A program made the position numbers and the translations under genes. Of a stretch of DNA of 64,000 nt, positions 11,283 to 18,980 are shown one piece after another (the first letter of the stretch is position 1; each line of letters begins with the position of its first letter). Location of the stretch: NCBI GenBank assembly GCA_023205875.1, contig CP060758.1, positions 806,001 through 870,000 on the forward strand, written 5' to 3'. The DNA comes from Chloropicon primus (taxonomy: Eukaryota > Chlorophyta > Chloropicophyceae > Chloropicales > Chloropicaceae). Below the pieces are notes generated by a model. The model worked only from the letters and a program-made list of their open reading frames with translations, was not told the origin of the DNA and did not search any database.

Positions 11283-12647
11283 TTACTTTCTGCTCTTCCT
11301 GCTTTTGACGTACCTCAGACCCATCTCCGCCCGGTTCTCGTTCTCGTGGGTGTCGTCGTCATCCAGGTTCTTCGCAGACCGCTTCCTTCCCTTCCTCGAG
11401 TCCGTCTCTCTCATCTGCATTGACGCCAGCCTCGAGGCCTCGCTCACCCTCTCCTGAAGAACCAAGACCGCTTCCTCTTGCGACTCGAAGTTCTCCATCT
11501 TCTTTCCTATCAGGTGCTCGATCTTTTGGAACATCTCCACGTCGTACTGGGTGACGAGGGTGAGAGACCTCCCAGACCTCCCGGCCCTTGCCGTTCTGCC
11601 GACGCGGTGCACGTAATCCTTGGGATTCAAGGGGACATCAAAGTTGATGACCATGTCGACCGAGGGAATGTCCAAGCCTCGGCTTGCCACATCCGTCGCC
11701 ACCAGAATGTTTCTGTCACCCGACTTGAACTTGTTCAACGAACCAATTCTCTTCGACTGACTCATGTTACCGTGGATCGGTATGGAGGCAAAGCCCAAGT
11801 TCCTCAGCAAGAGCGCGTTCCTGCGAGCGCCGTCGCAAGTTCTGGTGAAGATGACAGCCGTGGATCCCGAGAGCTCCGTCAGGGCGTAGACCAGGTAGCA
11901 CTCCTTGAACTTGGCGGGTATGAAGAGGTACTGCTGCCTTAGCGTGTCCACGGTGCTGTACTTGCTGCAGATCTCCACCCTCACCGGGTTTTTCAGGCAA
12001 GCTCTCTGCAGCTTCTGCACTTTGCTCGTCATCGTCGCCGAGAACAGCTGCGTCCTGCGGTCCCTCGGTATCACCTTGAGGATCTGGTCGATCTCCTGCT
12101 CGAAGTCCATGTTCAAAAGCCGGTCGGCCTCGTCCAACACCAAGTGCTTCAACTTGTTCAGGTTAAAGCCCTTTGTGTTCGAAAGGTGGTCCACGACCCT
12201 TCCCGGCGTGCCCACAATGACGTGCGGCCTCCGGCCCAATGCGATGGACTGGGCCATCATGTCCACCCCTCCGACGAGAACCACGGACTTCAAGCCTATC
12301 GTAACCCCCAGGGCCTCGAACTGCTCCGCGATTTGGATGGCGAGCTCTCTCGTGGGGGACAGAACGAGGGCGAAGAAGGGCTGGGGCTTGTCGAGGAGCT
12401 CTTGGAGTATGGGTAGCGCGAAAGCGCCCGTCTTCCCGCTTCCAGTCTGAGCCAGACCAATCACGTCCTTGCCGTCTATCAACTGAGGAACTGCTTGGCG
12501 TTGGATGTCCGTAGGAGCCTTCCAGCCCAGGGCGAGGCACCCCTCGGCCAAGGCGTCCACGAGGCCGAGGTCCGTGAACGCCTTCTTAGCGTCCCCTTCC
12601 CCCGTCCCGGCCTGCCCGTTCGTCTCCTTCCGTTGCTCGGCACTCAT
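11283..12647 (-). CDS. DDX47: DEAD-box RNA helicase DDX47/Rrp3
   Basis: 454 residues with all DEAD-box motifs: Q motif region (WKAPTDIQ), I AQTGSGKT (66-73), Ia PTRELA, II DEAD (172-175), III SAT (203-205), [11 protein letters not shown] and [12 protein letters not shown] (348-357). The opening [19 protein letters not shown] and the motif [11 protein letters not shown] are characteristic of the DDX47/Rrp3 branch, which works in 18S rRNA maturation in the nucleolus. The C-terminus is short and basic (KSRKSRK). ATG 12647 gives a short polar leader as in orthologues. Confident in subfamily. Confidence 0.93.
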
Positions 12648-12802
12648 CTTCCCCCTCCCCCTCTCGTCGCTCTCCCGTCGCGCCGTCTTTCTTTTGCAGA
12701 CTTGACTTGGAGGGGAGGACCTGCCGAATCGCGAATTGCTGAAGGGAAATTGAAATTTGAAATTACGATTACATAGTACATCAGATTAGCAAATGAATCC
12801 TC

Positions 12803-12830
12803 GTGTGATCGCTGGTGAGAGCGATCACAC
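12803..12830. repeat. inverted repeat near the left end of the insertion
   Basis: GTGTGATCGCT (12803-12813) and AGCGATCACAC (12820-12830) are perfect 11-bp arms around a 6-base loop, 29 bp inside the left direct repeat. It could be a transposon-end or transcription-termination structure. No matching copy is seen near the right end. Confidence 0.75.
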
Positions 12831-13449
12831 TCATGACGCTACCCGCAGGGCTTCACCAGGGCTTCGCCCTAGCTTCGGCCTGCGCTGCGTCTACGTTGCT
12901 TCTCATCATTTGATTACACGATACCATCACGCAAAAGTTACCCCGGAGGGTTACTCCCATCAGGTACCTTCGATTGTATTCTATGCGGCCCTCCACCAGC
13001 GAATCGAAACGCCTTTTTGAATGGAAGGTGACACTTCCATCCAATGTAGAGAGCCATCCGGACTACTCTCACTCCGAAGGGGAAGGAGCTGCCCCGAGTG
13101 TAAAACACTTTCATGCAGGCGTGTCGGAGCTCACCCCGGCGGTGGCGAGGCTTGGTTGGTTGGCTGTTTCAGAATCAAGAGTCTTGAAACATGTAGGCAC
13201 GCAAGGCTACTCCTTTCATCGTCCACAACCAATCACCCCGCCGATACCAGGGACTGTCGAGCTCGCACGCTCTTTGAGTCTTCGAGCTGTGGCCTCGACT
13301 ATGGGGGCGCGTTCACTTAAAAAAGAAACACAAGGAAACAAAAAACGAGAACGCAAGCCCCTCTCAGTCTCGACTAATCAAGCGCAGCTTCTTCATCATG
13401 GCTGGGCACACCATGGTGATGGGCACACGGCGTCGCCAAGGGAAGTGCT

Positions 13450-13508
13450 GGTCGCTCGGGCAGGCCGGTCGCTCGGGCAGGCCGGTCGCTCGGGCAAGCG
13501 ACCGGCCT
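13450..13508. repeat. 17-bp tandem repeat with inverted end
   Basis: Three units of GGTCGCTCGGGCAGGCC (13450-13500, the last with two changes) followed by CGACCGGCCT (13499-13508), the inverse complement of the unit junction AGGCCGGTCG. The array could fold into alternative hairpins. It lies 220 bp before the Fanzor ATG. Confidence 0.8.
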
Positions 13509-13580
13509 GGTGCGACGACGGACGTTCACAACTGAGGGTGAGGGTCGTGGTCTCCGATGACACTTTCAAAATTTCCACGA

Positions 13581-13639
13581 CCACAGCCACAACCACAGCC
13601 ACAGCCACAGCCACAGCCACAGCCACAGCCACAGCCACA
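13581..13639. repeat. (CAGCCA)n hexanucleotide repeat
   Basis: About nine units of CCACAG with two CCACAA variants; in the putative promoter or leader of the Fanzor gene. Confidence 0.9.
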
Positions 13640-13729
13640 ACATCAAAAAAAGAGAGGAGAGGAGAGGAGAGGAGAGAGGGGGGGAGGGAGGGGGGCTGGG
13701 CACTTCCACATTAACTCTACTTCGACACC

Positions 13730-15796
13730 ATGACCTCCGACGGCCCTTCGACCTCACGTCCTACTGCCAAGCGTCTACGTGGTTCGCGTTCTCCTCGCCG
13801 ATCCCATTCAAAGAGGAGGAAGGGGAAGAAGGAGAAGGAGAAGGAGAAGAAGGGGAAGAAGAAAAAAATTTTTAGGGCGTATAAGATCGGTCTCCATTCA
13901 GCTCTCCAGCCCAGGTTGCGGGACAGCCTTGGGGTCGAATTGGAGGATGCCTCAAGAAGAATGGGGGTGATAAACCATCTCGGGACGGTGTTGATGGCCC
14001 TCCACCATGCTCGTCGGCTTGGGGAACTGCCCGGGGCTTCTGCTGATCTCGAAACCTTTCACCGTCGGTGCGGAGAGATGGTGACTGAGCTCAATCAACT
14101 CAGGGCTGAGCGGGAGGGGGGGCCGGTGGCGGACATCCAACTCCTCAAGAGGGTTTGGAGGTGTGTTCCAGCGATGGATCGGGTTTCGATAGGTCACTAC
14201 CTCCGCACCGTCTCCCACACGCCCAATTCGAGGGAACCAACGTCACAGGAACCAACGTCACAGGAGTGGAGATTGCTCCAGGCATCCATGGCGGCGTTGG
14301 TTCAGGCCGCCACAGCTGCCGAGACCTCTCTGCGTCTGCGTCTGCCATCGCGGGCGCTCCTGTCGCATGTCATCACGGAAGCTGCACTAGTTCTCAGGAC
14401 GAATTGGTCAAACTTCCTCAAGTACGGGACCTTCAATCACATGAAGCAATACCTGAGAGCAAAGTACCAACTGAACAAATCCGAGGCTGCCGCTCTCCGA
14501 GCAGCCCTTTTGAGCGAGTCGCAGCCCCGGAGACCCGACCTCGTCCAACACTACCACAACGAGCTGGCCCTCGTTCAGGGCTTTGGCGTTGCAGACTTTA
14601 TGCACGGCACCGACAACGTTCTCGACCCCGCGGAGCAAGAGAGAAACATGGTCGTGTTCAGGTATATGATGCTCAAAACGGTAGAGGCCTCGGACCTTCC
14701 GATCAAGCGTTTCACTCTGGTGCCTGTCTGCCGGGTGCAGTATCCAATGATCAATGTCTCGCGATCTTGCCTGAAACTCTGGGGCTATGATGGTGGCCGT
14801 GGGTGGGAGAAGATTTTCACCAAGAAGGTGAACAACATCGCCAAGAAGGGCCACACGAATGGACGTACCAAGGCATTCGCTAGGCACTTTCGAACCGATG
14901 GCCTCAGCGTCGTGGTCGTTGTCGAAGAGGTGATCCTCGCTCGTCCCGACAACAACTATATAGGCCAAGGGGAGCGGTGTGCCACCAAGCCTTCTCAGTT
15001 CGATCCCCGGAACACCGTGGGCGTTGATCCCGGCCGAATTTTTGTCGTCTACGCGAACATTCTGGAGAGGGGGAGGAAGAGGACCTTTTCTCTTCACCTC
15101 TCCGCTTACCGCGACCGCTGTGGTTTCACGAAGAGGAATATTTTGGCACACCAGTGGCTGAGCAGAGCCCCCAACAATCTCCAACAGAGATTGAACGACC
15201 GCGCCATTTCTCTGAAGCTCACAAGTGTAGATCGCCTCCAGGCGGCGATTGGGACCCGGCTCACCTTCCTCTCCAACGCCATCGATTTTTTGGGGCAACG
15301 GCGCTGGCGTCGAAAAGGGTTGGAGACTTTTGGGCGAAAGCAGCGAACTATGGAGTTCATAGCAAGCAAACTCTTCCCGACGGCGTCACACATCGTCTTC
15401 TACGGAGCCGCAAACTTCCCCTCTGGCATCAGGGGACGCCCTCCCGGGCCTTGCATCGGGCTCAAAAGGTTTTTGGTGACGAAGACCACACCAGGGAGAT
15501 TCTTCTTCGTCGATGAATACAACACCTCCAAGATGTGCGCAGCATGCTCTCAGAAGAACATCTCCACTGCGCTGCGGAGAGTGCACAAGAGTGATAGAAG
15601 CCGAGGAAACGGACCACCATCAAAGAAGGGACGTCCCCAGTACGGAGTTTTGTCCTGCCCCAAATGCAGTATGGAAGTGCCCCGCGACGATAACGGCTCG
15701 GACAACATCCTCGCCATCGCCAGTGCTTTCCTCCATGCACAAAATTGGTCTGTCCCACGCGAGATTTGGCCGCCAGCGCTGCGACGCCCTCTGTAG
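13730..15796 (+). CDS. Fanzor protein (eukaryotic TnpB-like RNA-guided nuclease), looks intact
   Basis: 688 residues, uninterrupted. The C-terminal third is a TnpB/Fanzor nuclease: RuvC-I VGVDPGRIFVVYA (D433), a four-Cys zinc knuckle inside the RuvC domain (C603/C606 in SKMCAAC, C643/C646 in SCPKC), and RuvC-III PRDDNGSDNI (D653 aligned with the catalytic Asp of DRDxNAAxNI). The canonical RuvC-II Glu position near HIVFYGAANF lacks a Glu, but E596 in VDEYNTSKMC is placed where Fanzors are reported to carry an alternative catalytic Glu. Residues 20-48 are almost pure Lys/Arg/Glu, a good nuclear localisation signal. Such proteins use a guide RNA made from the 3' end of the gene and flank, and cut DNA at a target-adjacent motif; in transposons they help the element persist. 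No transposase gene accompanies it. The catalytic residues being intact suggests recent activity or selection. Confidence 0.9.
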   Translation: MTSDGPSTSRPTAKRLRGSRSPRRSHSKRRKGKKEKEKEKKGKKKKIFRAYKIGLHSALQPRLRDSLGVELEDASRRMGVINHLGTVLMALHHARRLGELPGASADLETFHRRCGEMVTELNQLRAEREGGPVADIQLLKRVWRCVPAMDRVSIGHYLRTVSHTPNSREPTSQEPTSQEWRLLQASMAALVQAATAAETSLRLRLPSRALLSHVITEAALVLRTNWSNFLKYGTFNHMKQYLRAKYQLNKSEAAALRAALLSESQPRRPDLVQHYHNELALVQGFGVADFMHGTDNVLDPAEQERNMVVFRYMMLKTVEASDLPIKRFTLVPVCRVQYPMINVSRSCLKLWGYDGGRGWEKIFTKKVNNIAKKGHTNGRTKAFARHFRTDGLSVVVVVEEVILARPDNNYIGQGERCATKPSQFDPRNTVGVDPGRIFVVYANILERGRKRTFSLHLSAYRDRCGFTKRNILAHQWLSRAPNNLQQRLNDRAISLKLTSVDRLQAAIGTRLTFLSNAIDFLGQRRWRRKGLETFGRKQRTMEFIASKLFPTASHIVFYGAANFPSGIRGRPPGPCIGLKRFLVTKTTPGRFFFVDEYNTSKMCAACSQKNISTALRRVHKSDRSRGNGPPSKKGRPQYGVLSCPKCSMEVPRDDNGSDNILAIASAFLHAQNWSVPREIWPPALRRPL

Positions 15797-15858
15797 CGGC
15801 AAGGGCTATGGATCCAGGTTGAAACCAAGCAGGACACTGGATAAGATCTTTCTTGAGA
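15690..15858 (+). ncRNA. candidate guide-RNA (omega/fRNA) region at the Fanzor 3' end
   Basis: By analogy with TnpB and Fanzor loci the guide scaffold should overlap the last codons and run to the right end of the element. After the stop there are about 60 bases before NXD1 similarity begins. They contain possible hairpins: ATCCAG (15812-15817) with CTGGAT (15837-15842), enclosing GGT-TGAA-ACC (15817-15826), then GATCT (15845-15849) with AGATC (15856-15860). The region is proposed from position and these pairings only; no transcript is visible from sequence. Confidence 0.35.
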
Positions 15859-16281
15859 TCGAGGAGGACGTGGGAGGCCCAAGCACAGGACGTCGGGGCA
15901 TTCCAAACGAGTCCGGACAGCACCACGAGCTCATCCATCGGACCGGCAGGGCTATCCTCGTAGTTCGCGTAGTAGAAGCCTCCCAGTGTGTACCCGTTCA
16001 ACTCCACCAGAGGCATCTCCTGCACGACGACGGCAAGCGCGTCCCATCCCATCCCATCATCCAAGCGTCCGTACACAGAGTGAGAGAGTGCGTGCGTGTG
16101 CGTGCGTGTGTGTGTGTGGGGGGGGGAGTCAGTTCAGTTCAGTCCATGGTGAGTGCGACAGGAAGGTTTGCTTGTTGGGAACTTACCGGAGGGACGTATT
16201 GGCGAGCGACAGAGGACTTGACGAGGTGGAACTGATAGTGCGCGGACCCCCTGAACGTCCAACAACCCTCCCGGGAACGTC
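15858..16281 (-). pseudogene. NXD1: NXD1 (neoxanthin-deficient 1) fragment, two exons, both ends missing
   Basis: On the - strand, one coding piece (about 16270-16187) reads WTFRGSAHYQFHLVKSSVAR then QYVPP; a consensus GTAAGT donor, an intron of 167 bp with a (GT)n tract (16186-16020) and a CAG acceptor follow; the next piece (16019 to about 15858) reads on in frame with PLVELNGYTLGGFYYANYED, SPAGPMDELVVLSGLVWN and PTSCAWASHVLL. Spliced, this matches the N-terminal third of plant NXD1, an acetoacetate-decarboxylase-fold protein needed for neoxanthin synthesis in plastids. There is no start codon (an in-frame TGA precedes it) and similarity ends ~60 bp from the Fanzor stop, with no donor site. 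The remaining two thirds are not elsewhere in the window. The intron shows it was taken as DNA, not from mRNA. Confidence 0.8.
16088..16131. repeat. (GT)n-(G)n tract in the NXD1 fragment intron
   Basis: TGCGTGCG repeats pass into GT repeats and then a run of nine or ten G on the + strand, wholly inside the intron of the NXD1 fragment. Confidence 0.85.
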
Positions 16282-16289
16282 AATTACGA

Positions 16290-16294
16290 TTACA
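16290..16294 (-). terminator. TGTAA poly(A) signal of RAB3GAP1
   Basis: TGTAA on the - strand starts one base after the RAB3GAP1 stop codon and lies inside the right copy of the 14-bp direct repeat, so the insertion junction is also the 3' end of this gene. TGTAA is the chlorophyte poly(A) signal. Confidence 0.5.
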
Positions 16295-18811
16295 TTAGAC
16301 GGTTACAATGGAAGCGAAACGTGTCATGCTCTGGTCGAGGTCTTGGGAGAGGTAGGTGTACAACAAGGGCAAGTCCTCGGGGCCTTGGGCCTCGCCGGCG
16401 GAGGTGAACAGTTGGACCACCTGCTTGCGGAGGTGAAGGAGCATCACGCTGTCAGAGCTTTCTTCCTGCCTTCGGAAGCTTTCGCCGAAACTGAAGGAGG
16501 AGTGAAAGGGGTCCGAGAGGCTCAGCTCCAGGGTCGGGCCGTTGGAGAACTCCTTTGTGACCAGTTTGTTGACGAAGGCGTCGACAAGGAAGGCCTTGAC
16601 GTCCCCCGAAAGGAAGACCAGCTTCTGGACCACGCTCTCGGCGAAGGATATGGAGACTTCCAGCAGGTGGAGGTCGAGGCAGAGGATCGTGGCCTCCTCG
16701 TCCTTCGCGAGGTCTGAAGTCGCCAGCTTCTTCGGCAACTTCGCCACCCAGTCTTGGACGCTCTCTTTGACGCTCGAGACGAGATCTGCGATAGGCTTCA
16801 GCTCCAGGTTCCTGCTCGCTCTGAGGGTGTTCACACAATTGGACAAGCCCAGGCAGTAGAGCGACTTGAACAACTCGAGGGGGGCCACGTGCTCGAGCCA
16901 GTCCAGGGCCATCTCGGCTCTGCTGCAGAGAACGCTTTCTGCCAACCCCCCCTCGGAGTGGTCCTCTTCCTCTTGGGCGCTCGCCAAGTCATTCCACACG
17001 TCTTTCAGCCTGTCCTTGGTGAAATTGTTCCACGCAAGAGATTTGCAGAGCTTTGAGAACTCGTCGAAATACCTCGAGGACCGAAAGTGCTTCTTGAAGT
17101 CACCAAAGGACACCCCGTCCTTGGCCCTCCTGAAGGACCTTGCCATCTTCCTCGCCGCAACCCCGTGCATCTTGATCCAGACCTCTTTCTTGTTCTTCTT
17201 GTTCGAGGTCGTGGTGAACATGTAGTCATACTCACCGACGAGGTCCGAGGTGAGCATGCTCGGGTTCGAATCACCCGAGTCATTTCCCACCAAGTCGTTC
17301 GCGCTCAGGGTGCCGCCGCTCCTCAGCCCCAGAATGCAGAGCTGGATCAGCTGCACCTTCTGCTCGATGACTTGGCACGAATGGTCGATGCCCGCAAAGC
17401 CAACCATTCTCGGCAGGAGCTCCCGCTCCTCCCAGTACCCGAGCCTAATCCCCGAAATAAACCGCTTCCACAGCAAGGAGATCGCCCTTGGGTTGTCGCC
17501 ATAAGACAGGGCGTACATGGACAGGTACCCCACGAGGTTGTCCACGGGGAGGCTGTGGAGGTCGTTCTCGAGCCCCCCGAAGTTCTGCGTGACGTGAGCC
17601 CTCCGGTTGAAGATGGACTCGACCTGAGTCTCCAAAAGATTCTTCGAGGGTATCTGAGGGACCTGCGAGTATTGGTCCCAAAATGAATCCTGGGACAACT
17701 GGCTGACCCCCTTGGCCCTCTCGACCAGCTGAAAGGTGGAGTGAAAGGCGGACACCATTTGAGCAAAAAAGTAGCCACCGCTTGACTTCTTCATGGTATC
17801 CATCACATTCCTGTGCCACATGACGTCCGAGAGCACTTCGTCTTTGAGCTCGAGCTTCAAGCAGGCCTCGCCCACCGCGTCAAGGGCACTCAGAGACGAG
17901 AGCTCAAAACTCTTCACGGACTGGGAAGATCCGCTGGACCCACCCGCGCGTTGGAATGAATCGAGATCGGTCTGCACATCAGAGCAGCGGAGGTTGTCCC
18001 ACGATATTCCCAGCCTTATCCCGGCGATTGGATCTTCGTATTCTGCCCAAGGGTACCAGGGGCAAGCAGCGTTCCAGTCGTCAATCCAGATGCACATGTC
18101 GGACTCTGACTCCGGGAGGGTCCAAGTGAGTTCGAACTCTCTCGTCACACTCGCGCTCGTGCTCGCGGCCTGCCCTGCCCCCCCCGCGGCGGCGGCTCCC
18201 CGCCCCCTCTCCACGACCGATCCCGCCCTGGACTCGGAGTGGTAGCCTTCCACGACCGACAGCGGAGGCATCTCAGCTGCCTTGAGTCTTCCCGTGATAC
18301 AGTCCGTTTGCAACCGCGCCACGTGGCCCCCTGGCCTCAGGTGCACGCCTTCGAAGGACCTCCTCTGCCTGTCTCTCATCGGTATGAGCAGCGGGTGGGG
18401 GAACTTCAAGCTCGTCGCGGACGTGGACAGAGCCGACAAGAGCGCCACGCCCTCCTCCTTATCGAGAACGCAGCCCGAAAACGAGTTCGGGTAAAGCAGC
18501 ACGAAGGGCTCCCCCTCCCCCAAGGCAAGCCACTTGGACAGGTAGTGGTCCATGGGAGGGTAGTGCAAGGCCACGCTGTACTTCTCCGGCCGGAACTGCG
18601 GCAGCTTCGCTTCCAGGACCCACACATGAACCTGGTCCCCCTCGTTGTTTTCGATGACTTGGCTCGGCGATGCTGCAGCGGGAAAGTCTCTCAAACCTTC
18701 TCCGTCCTCCTGGGCCTTCTTCCATTCGCGAAGCTTGGCCTCCACCTCCGCACAGAACGCCTCCCACGCCGTCGCGGTCGTGTAGTCCAGGAACCCGTCC
18801 TCATCCTCCAT
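16295..18811 (-). CDS. RAB3GAP1: Rab3 GTPase-activating protein catalytic subunit
   Basis: Single exon, 838 residues. The N-terminus DGFLDYTTATAWEAFCAEVE is the hallmark of Rab3GAP1, and the following segments match the family: HVWVLEAKLPQFRPEKYSVA, the central WIDDWNAACPWYPWAEYEDP block, ESIFNRRAHVTQNFGG (normally around the middle), and a C-terminal all-helical region. With RAB3GAP2 the human protein acts as a GAP for Rab3 and an exchange factor for Rab18 and affects autophagy and ER membranes. The frame stays open upstream to 18937, but ATG 18811 starts exactly at the conserved motif. The last codons abut the right direct repeat of the Fanzor insertion. Confidence 0.9.
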   Translation of the reverse strand: MEDEDGFLDYTTATAWEAFCAEVEAKLREWKKAQEDGEGLRDFPAAASPSQVIENNEGDQVHVWVLEAKLPQFRPEKYSVALHYPPMDHYLSKWLALGEGEPFVLLYPNSFSGCVLDKEEGVALLSALSTSATSLKFPHPLLIPMRDRQRRSFEGVHLRPGGHVARLQTDCITGRLKAAEMPPLSVVEGYHSESRAGSVVERGRGAAAAGGAGQAASTSASVTREFELTWTLPESESDMCIWIDDWNAACPWYPWAEYEDPIAGIRLGISWDNLRCSDVQTDLDSFQRAGGSSGSSQSVKSFELSSLSALDAVGEACLKLELKDEVLSDVMWHRNVMDTMKKSSGGYFFAQMVSAFHSTFQLVERAKGVSQLSQDSFWDQYSQVPQIPSKNLLETQVESIFNRRAHVTQNFGGLENDLHSLPVDNLVGYLSMYALSYGDNPRAISLLWKRFISGIRLGYWEERELLPRMVGFAGIDHSCQVIEQKVQLIQLCILGLRSGGTLSANDLVGNDSGDSNPSMLTSDLVGEYDYMFTTTSNKKNKKEVWIKMHGVAARKMARSFRRAKDGVSFGDFKKHFRSSRYFDEFSKLCKSLAWNNFTKDRLKDVWNDLASAQEEEDHSEGGLAESVLCSRAEMALDWLEHVAPLELFKSLYCLGLSNCVNTLRASRNLELKPIADLVSSVKESVQDWVAKLPKKLATSDLAKDEEATILCLDLHLLEVSISFAESVVQKLVFLSGDVKAFLVDAFVNKLVTKEFSNGPTLELSLSDPFHSSFSFGESFRRQEESSDSVMLLHLRKQVVQLFTSAGEAQGPEDLPLLYTYLSQDLDQSMTRFASIVTV

Positions 18812-18980
18812 GATCTCCGAGCCCCCCCAGCTGTCACTTGTGGAGGATACCAGCCCAGCAAAGCACCAGAGAGAGAGAAGAGAGAGAGGGGGGGGTGAAT
18901 CGGTTGGTGGGAGTCCATAAGAAGTATGTCGTTTCATAAAAAATACTTGGAGATAAGGGTGTACTTTTTAGACCCTTACT

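Follow-up and report, generated by a model that had tools for sequence, protein, structure and literature searches.

A Fanzor1-like gene lies on the plus strand of the Chloropicon primus window, by which is meant the whole 64,000-nucleotide stretch analysed (C5:806001-870000, C numbers denoting contigs). Fanzors are eukaryotic relatives of the CRISPR nucleases and of the RNA-guided nuclease TnpB. The genome searched comprised 17,584,162 bases in 20 contigs (longest chromosome 1,855,637, shortest 417,210), in keeping with the compact algal genome assumed in an earlier sequence-only reading. The gene is carried by a mobile element between two direct repeats. The features of the locus are:

11283..12647, minus strand: left neighbour, a DEAD-box helicase gene (Pfam DEAD 2.8e-47, Helicase_C 2.3e-31)
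12761..12774, plus strand: left 14-bp direct repeat AATTACGATTACAT (2 matches in the window at ≤2 mismatches, 0.04 expected)
12772..12791, plus strand: left end CATA(T/G)TACATCAGATT(T)AGC (≤2 mismatches in 14/20 left-end loci)
12775..16281, plus strand: mobile element as inserted, between the direct repeats (3.5 kb aligned with the C2 copy at 98.3% identity)
12803..12830, plus strand: perfect 11-bp stem with a 6-nt loop near the left end (≤2 substitutions in 15/20 left-end copies)
13730..15796, plus strand: Fanzor1-like ORF (688 aa, ATG start, no internal stop)
15797..15873, plus strand: post-stop stretch common to the four copies reaching that far (identical over 76-78 bp in the copies at C5:154707 and C13)
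15864..16281, minus strand: captured acetoacetate-decarboxylase-like gene fragment (99.3% over 422 bp; start uncertain within 15858-15873)
16282..16295, plus strand: right 14-bp direct repeat, an exact copy of AATTACGATTACAT (same search)
16295..18937, minus strand: right neighbour, an 880-aa ORF (stop codon at 16295-16297 overlapping the right direct repeat)

The left neighbour is presumably DDX47-like. No Pfam family was found for the 880-aa right neighbour, which we take to resemble the RAB3GAP catalytic subunit. The Fanzor gene is the only gene recognised in the element besides the captured host-gene fragment. No transposase was recognised there, which agrees with one half of the earlier description of the gene as standing alone without a transposase. 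The other half was not borne out, as the element around the gene is repeated and Fanzor sequence was found at five other loci.

The gene and its protein

The 688 codons were confirmed as uninterrupted. The stop-free run here is 693 codons; the longest among 500 order-1 randomisations of this stretch was 480. The GC3 of the ORF is 0.669, compared to 0.813 and 0.792 in two neighbouring genes. A (CCACAG)n microsatellite is present at 13575-13640 in the leader of the gene. The protein has the following features, all on the plus strand:

13763..13879, plus strand: Lys/Arg-rich N-terminus, residues 12-50 (21/39 residues Lys or Arg)
14894..14902, plus strand: TDG tripeptide, residues 389-391, Fanzor1 WED-domain mark (motif according to the available text of PMC10711439)
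15026..15034, plus strand: RuvC-I DPG with D433 (residue check)
15515..15517, plus strand: RuvC-II alternative glutamate E596 in DEYNTSKMC (from 595), with six residues between E596 and C603
15536..15667, plus strand: C4 zinc knuckle C603/C606/C643/C646 (PF07282 match, residues 590-660)
15686..15688, plus strand: RuvC-III aspartate D653, in the RD at 652-653 (residue check)

D433, E596, D653 and the CxxC pairs at 603/606 and 643/646 were all found where the sequence-only reading had placed them. The Lys-rich N-terminus that it had pointed out was also found, and is likely to act as a nuclear-localisation signal, a putative role. A regular expression for the TnpB/Fanzor motif D-X(125,275)-[TS][TS]-X-X-C4-X(5,50)-RD, taken from the available text of PMC3627910, matched at 433-653.

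The proposed assignment to Fanzor/TnpB was upheld by a profile search, with a match to Pfam PF07282 (Cas12f1-like TNB domain) at E=5.5e-7 and 30.1 bits, over the cut-off of 26.3 and limited to the zinc/RuvC-III end. NCBIfam guided_TnpB matched the same end at 16.3 bits, below its cut-off of 100, and matches in PHROGs and PADLOC were weak (best E 0.0038 and 0.0034, respectively). No HTH_OrfB domain was found in the window protein using Pfam, while the C. primus Fanzor2 protein P0002 has one. A motif-pattern search gave seven loci, of which four entered alignments A3/A4; fragments of 54 and 83 codons and locus L081 were excluded. In a profile comparison with one C. primus Fanzor2 and four viral TnpB-like proteins, residues 579-664 aligned with Fanzor2/TnpB (E 2e-5, probability 77). 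E596 aligned with the alternative glutamate of Fanzor2, in line with its suggested role as the alternative RuvC-II glutamate. AlphaFold models, built on alignments of only 2 and 6 rows, had a mean pLDDT of 31.5 for the whole protein and 36.6 for residues 375-688. With both values under 40 the models were set aside, for the RuvC site as well as for the kinked REC2 helices and the REC1/WED insertions expected of a Fanzor1.

Relatives and family placement

Protein searches requiring shared 5-residue words scored 8000 (best candidates only), 1336 and 1355 candidates. The sole relative among these was P0001, a near-identical protein also from C. primus, and none was found outside this species. P0001 is labelled Cas12f1-like TNB domain-containing in UniRef. 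It comprises 566 aa, begins at residue 117 and retains the catalytic residues. A PDB search gave no chain related to the window protein. The TnpB-like chain 9b0l was matched at 3.4e-6 by a profile mixing the window and Fanzor2 proteins, and was discounted as the Fanzor2 row alone matches it. Viral contigs searched with the window protein gave no match, the patterns used falling outside RuvC. Degenerate motif scans for Fanzor1 sequences gave 0 matches, and a C. primus Fanzor2 query retrieved no Fanzor1 sequences from viral or prokaryote contigs.

According to the available text of PMC10711439, Fanzors have as molecular fingerprints the RuvC-I tripeptide DPG and a glutamate placed six residues ahead of the zinc motif, and Fanzor1 is characterised by a TDG within the WED domain. 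Both Fanzor fingerprints are present, as D433-P-G and as E596 six residues ahead of C603. The TDG sits 44 positions before the DPG, where it would fall in the WED domain; the chance of a TDG in a 60-residue shuffled stretch is 0.0086. P0002, the Fanzor2 protein of C. primus, lacks the tripeptide. The gene was provisionally called Fanzor1-like because TDG is present before DPG and is lacking in the C. primus Fanzor2 protein.

Membership of the Fanzor/TnpB superfamily is supported at sequence level. The best reading is that of a new, strongly diverged Fanzor1-like member with RNA-guided activity predicted from its family. The window protein resembles Fanzor1 (SpuFz1, GtFz1; PMC10432273, available text) in its DPG, alternative RuvC-II glutamate, C4 zinc knuckle, RD and TDG, in its length of about 700 aa and in an element with no recognised IS607 transposase. 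It differs from these in having no sequence relative outside C. primus among the candidates scored and in that its guide RNA and activity are predicted only. DPG and the alternative glutamate are also common to IS607 TnpB and the cyanobacterial pro-Fanzors, which unlike the window gene are prokaryotic and co-occur with IS607 TnpA (PMC10711439, available text).

The sequence-only reading had considered a Fanzor in a compact alga unusual. This view did not survive a check of the literature, as C. primus Fanzor2s in DNA transposons are already published (PMC10711439, available text) and 25 IS605-transposase-like genes were counted in C. primus in 2019 (PMC6731263, available text). Fanzors are described as sporadic in green algae in the available text of PMC12636532, where Chlamydomonas and C. 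primus are cited. Genome-wide, PF07282 gave 44 matches with 43 over the cut-off; four belong to the window family and 39 lie elsewhere. The best 30 of these 39 were compared and 29 are 96-99% identical to one copy over long aligned pieces. In this abundant family the longest ORF was 477-539 aa in 25 of the 30 loci read (3.2 kb each). Most copies examined share a sharp right end, ...GATGTCTGAACACCATAACA, and the protein contains an HTH_OrfB domain in the one copy tested. The abundant family would correspond to the published C. primus Fanzor2 family.

Could the window gene be a Fanzor2/TnpB of that same published family? The TNB domain is common to both within one genome, and the published elements belong to the same superfamily (PMC10711439, available text). 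This reading is nevertheless very improbable and is already contradicted by several results. The best BLASTP piece between the window protein and the abundant family has 28% identity over 71 residues, and PF07282 scored the window family at 33-34 bits in the genome search compared to 68-70 for the 30 best matches. The right ends of the two families differ, and the window protein has TDG and lacks HTH_OrfB. The Fanzor2 elements are also abundant, with 39 other TNB matches, a sharp right end and a Fanzor2-type protein. In a comparison with the available main texts, the window family looks like a second lineage separate from the published C. primus Fanzors.

Copies of the element and captured host DNA

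The genome-wide paralogue search that had been proposed for finding element ends gave six Fanzor loci and 20 left-end loci with a conserved left end and a variable right end. Fanzor sequence was found in the window and at C5:154786, C2:358125-360171, C13:71777-73756, C1:410441 and C19:232212. Intact ORFs were present at two of the six loci (688 and 682 aa). The ORF of the C2 copy is frameshifted and that of the C13 copy is broken several times, so that two of the four copies reaching the 3' end of the gene keep their open frames of 688 and 682 codons and the catalytic residues. Of the 2043 bases aligned between the intact ORFs, 20 are different, in 17 nonsynonymous and 3 synonymous codons, and the pair shows no sign of purifying selection. 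At L015:3942-5123 (C1, ~410 kb) the first 131 Fanzor residues continue in one frame into a WD40-like protein. The WD40-type Pfam matches there were below their cut-offs, and this is possibly a chimeric gene.

The left-end region gave 22 matches at 20 distinct loci. A recognisable left terminus starts 14 of these, the other six being too diverged to judge. CATATTACATCAGATT occurs exactly at 12 places in the genome, 11 within the 20 loci and one on C7 outside them, and with 1 or 2 mismatches at three further loci of the 20, including the window. The sequence outside the left terminus differs between loci, with L056, L064 and L066 alike for about 8 bases further left. The fold of the left-end hairpin had z values of -2.3 and -2.5 on the two strands. 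Right ends vary, and 17 of the 20 left-end loci stop between 12822 and 14135 of the window copy. Seven of these 17 stops cluster at 12998-13025, near where the copies diverge from one another. The cluster may reflect a short subfamily that has a right end of its own, or the limit of alignment, and not random truncation.

The 14-bp direct repeat at the window copy would be a target-site duplication. The C2 copy is flanked by an imperfect repeat, GGATTACGATTACA at the left and this word minus one base at the right, and the copy's right end is 137 bp past the stop of an Rce1-like gene. The 13-mer core ATTACGATTACAT has exactly three genomic copies, all at the window and C2 elements. At ≤1 mismatch it had 21 matches compared to 6 for a reversed control word, and words like ATTACGATTACAT are therefore commoner than chance. 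Either this kind of insertion site is preferred, or the C5 insertion came about through homology carried along. No target-site duplication above background was found at the 17 other loci compared, where the longest shared word was 7; words of at least 8 occurred in 1.1% of mispaired flanks, and end points are unreliable at L054, L055 and L057. The C5:154786 copy showed no duplication by eye.

Beyond the stop codon, 15797..15873 is a candidate guide-RNA scaffold. It had five matches in the genome, namely the four Fanzor copies and C3, the last for the host-derived part only. The right-end fold was no better than shuffles (z -0.02 for 134 nt and -0.96 for 77 nt). Past 15873 the sequence matches the decarboxylase-like gene in its native place on C3. 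The captured fragment has its native copy at C3:594983-595404, and the ORF around that copy matches Pfam ADC weakly, at E=1.2e-4, which falls short of the cut-off. The fragment seems to retain an intron, its splice sites having been read by eye. The 61 bases from 16280 matched only themselves in the genome.

Other copies also carry host DNA. The C2 copy carries the C3 piece extending further, 471 bp at 98.7%, while the C5 and C13 copies run instead into sequence next to a hydrolase gene. The C19 piece holds 475 bp also found at C16 beside an ORF which we take to be GTPase-like. The host gene was oriented opposite to the Fanzor gene in all three cases (the C3, hydrolase and C16 pieces). An inverted pair of CATATTACATC, 946 bp apart on C19, was considered as a terminal inverted repeat and rejected, its right half being the 475-bp segment also at C16. 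Beside the GTPase-like gene, CTCCATATTACATC is present twice in direct orientation, 170 bp apart, at C16:400637-400822 (L075 1507-1687). The word CATATTACATC likewise forms the left end in the window family.

Mode of spread and significance

A mobilising enzyme was searched for across the genome. The only RVT_1 match was the telomerase, and no recognisable LINE reverse transcriptase was present in the assembly. The Helitron profile PF14214 had no match in the genome, with its controls silent too. PIF1 was found at one locus, which looks cellular. The PIF1 ORF, L079:730-3612 (C8, ~497 kb), contains a LAGLIDADG domain (7.8e-14). This domain follows the helicase motifs in frame, begins near ...ALTIHKC and has the look of an intein inserted into a nuclear gene.

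The closest comparison is with CRe-1, -2 and -3 of Chlamydomonas reinhardtii, described in the available text of PMC3627910 as non-autonomous Helitron2 elements with Fanzor1. These have an intact hairpin end, a truncated other end and duplications of 7-19 bp on many copies, along with short captured sequences. The window family is likewise from a green alga and has one hairpin end, a truncated other end, captured sequence and target-site duplications on some copies. Unlike CRe-1 to -3 as described there, the window element has its intact end upstream of the gene and its ORF is a single open frame; the flanks, read by eye, gave no sign of a TTTT target rule, and the truncated copies tested had no duplications. 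No Helitron protein was found here either, the PF14214 controls being silent. The element was called one-ended and not a Helitron because most duplications are missing and no RepHel was found; in this comparison it resembles a one-ended element, and Helitron identity is not claimed.

The preferred explanation, at a probability of about 0.65, is a divergent Fanzor1-like gene in a non-autonomous, one-ended mobile element of about 3.5 kb, with the enzyme supplied from elsewhere. It is held less firmly on account of the right-end cluster and the six diverged left ends. The conserved hairpin-bearing end lies upstream of the Fanzor gene and the variable end downstream. The element would spread one-endedly, driven by an enzyme encoded elsewhere, and would acquire host DNA at its variable end. 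The analogy with known Fanzors suggests that the protein may bind an RNA from the gene end together with the DNA just beyond, and that the complex may cut matching DNA and so help the element persist. The guide would be expected to begin either past 15873 or past the direct repeat. A more specific form of this explanation has only a slim chance of being correct, namely that green algae hold a second Fanzor1 branch, isolated in sequence, with one-ended, site-specific insertion at gene 3' ends and capture of host fragments at the guide position.

It is possible, if on balance doubtful, that this Fanzor-family gene is a relic in an immobile element, with the protein not maintained and the open frames belonging to young copies. 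The 17 nonsynonymous against 3 synonymous differences fit such a relic, as do the damaged ORFs at C2 and C13, the GC3 below that of the neighbours and the lack of a mobiliser in the RVT_1 and PIF1 profile searches. Against it, two of the four copies reaching the 3' end keep their open codons and catalytic residues, which are also present in the database protein P0001. The pieces could instead have been dispersed with no transposition, by ectopic recombination or segmental duplication or as filler DNA at breaks, and this is unlikely. Host segments do travel along with the copies, as seen in the roughly 422 bp from C3 that the window and C2 copies both carry, the 475 bp common to C19 and C16 and the hydrolase-gene sequence at C5 and C13, and duplications were not above background at 17 loci. 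However, a shared left terminus at 14 of 20 loci with differing outside sequence makes random breaks an unlikely source, even allowing for the three loci alike for some 8 bases more, and the window copy has an exact 14-bp direct repeat.

LINE-type retrotransposition of the minus strand is a distinctly weak candidate. The left end would then be the 3' end of the RNA, the Fanzor gene an antisense passenger and the varied right ends 5' truncations. One conserved hairpin end with differing other ends would suit this model, as would the 14-bp direct repeats at two copies (one imperfect) and the minus-strand sense of the host-gene pieces in three of three cases. The model is weakened by the telomerase being the only reverse-transcriptase match. 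It is further opposed by the lack of a poly-A tail at the left end by eye, by duplications at the 17 other loci that do not exceed background and by the intron that the captured fragment seems to keep.

The Fanzor gene of the window is real, intact-looking and strongly diverged, belongs to a small mobile-element family and is not unusual in kind. If inactive, it would be a further Fanzor relic in a species from which Fanzors had already been reported. If active, it would be a remote addition to the Fanzors, a family that is currently being mined for compact genome editors. C. primus is a small, fully assembled alga in which several copies can be compared, and the host fragments beside the expected guide position may show how Fanzor guides change as the element moves. 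If the host-capture reading is true, the element would gain guides against its host's own genes.
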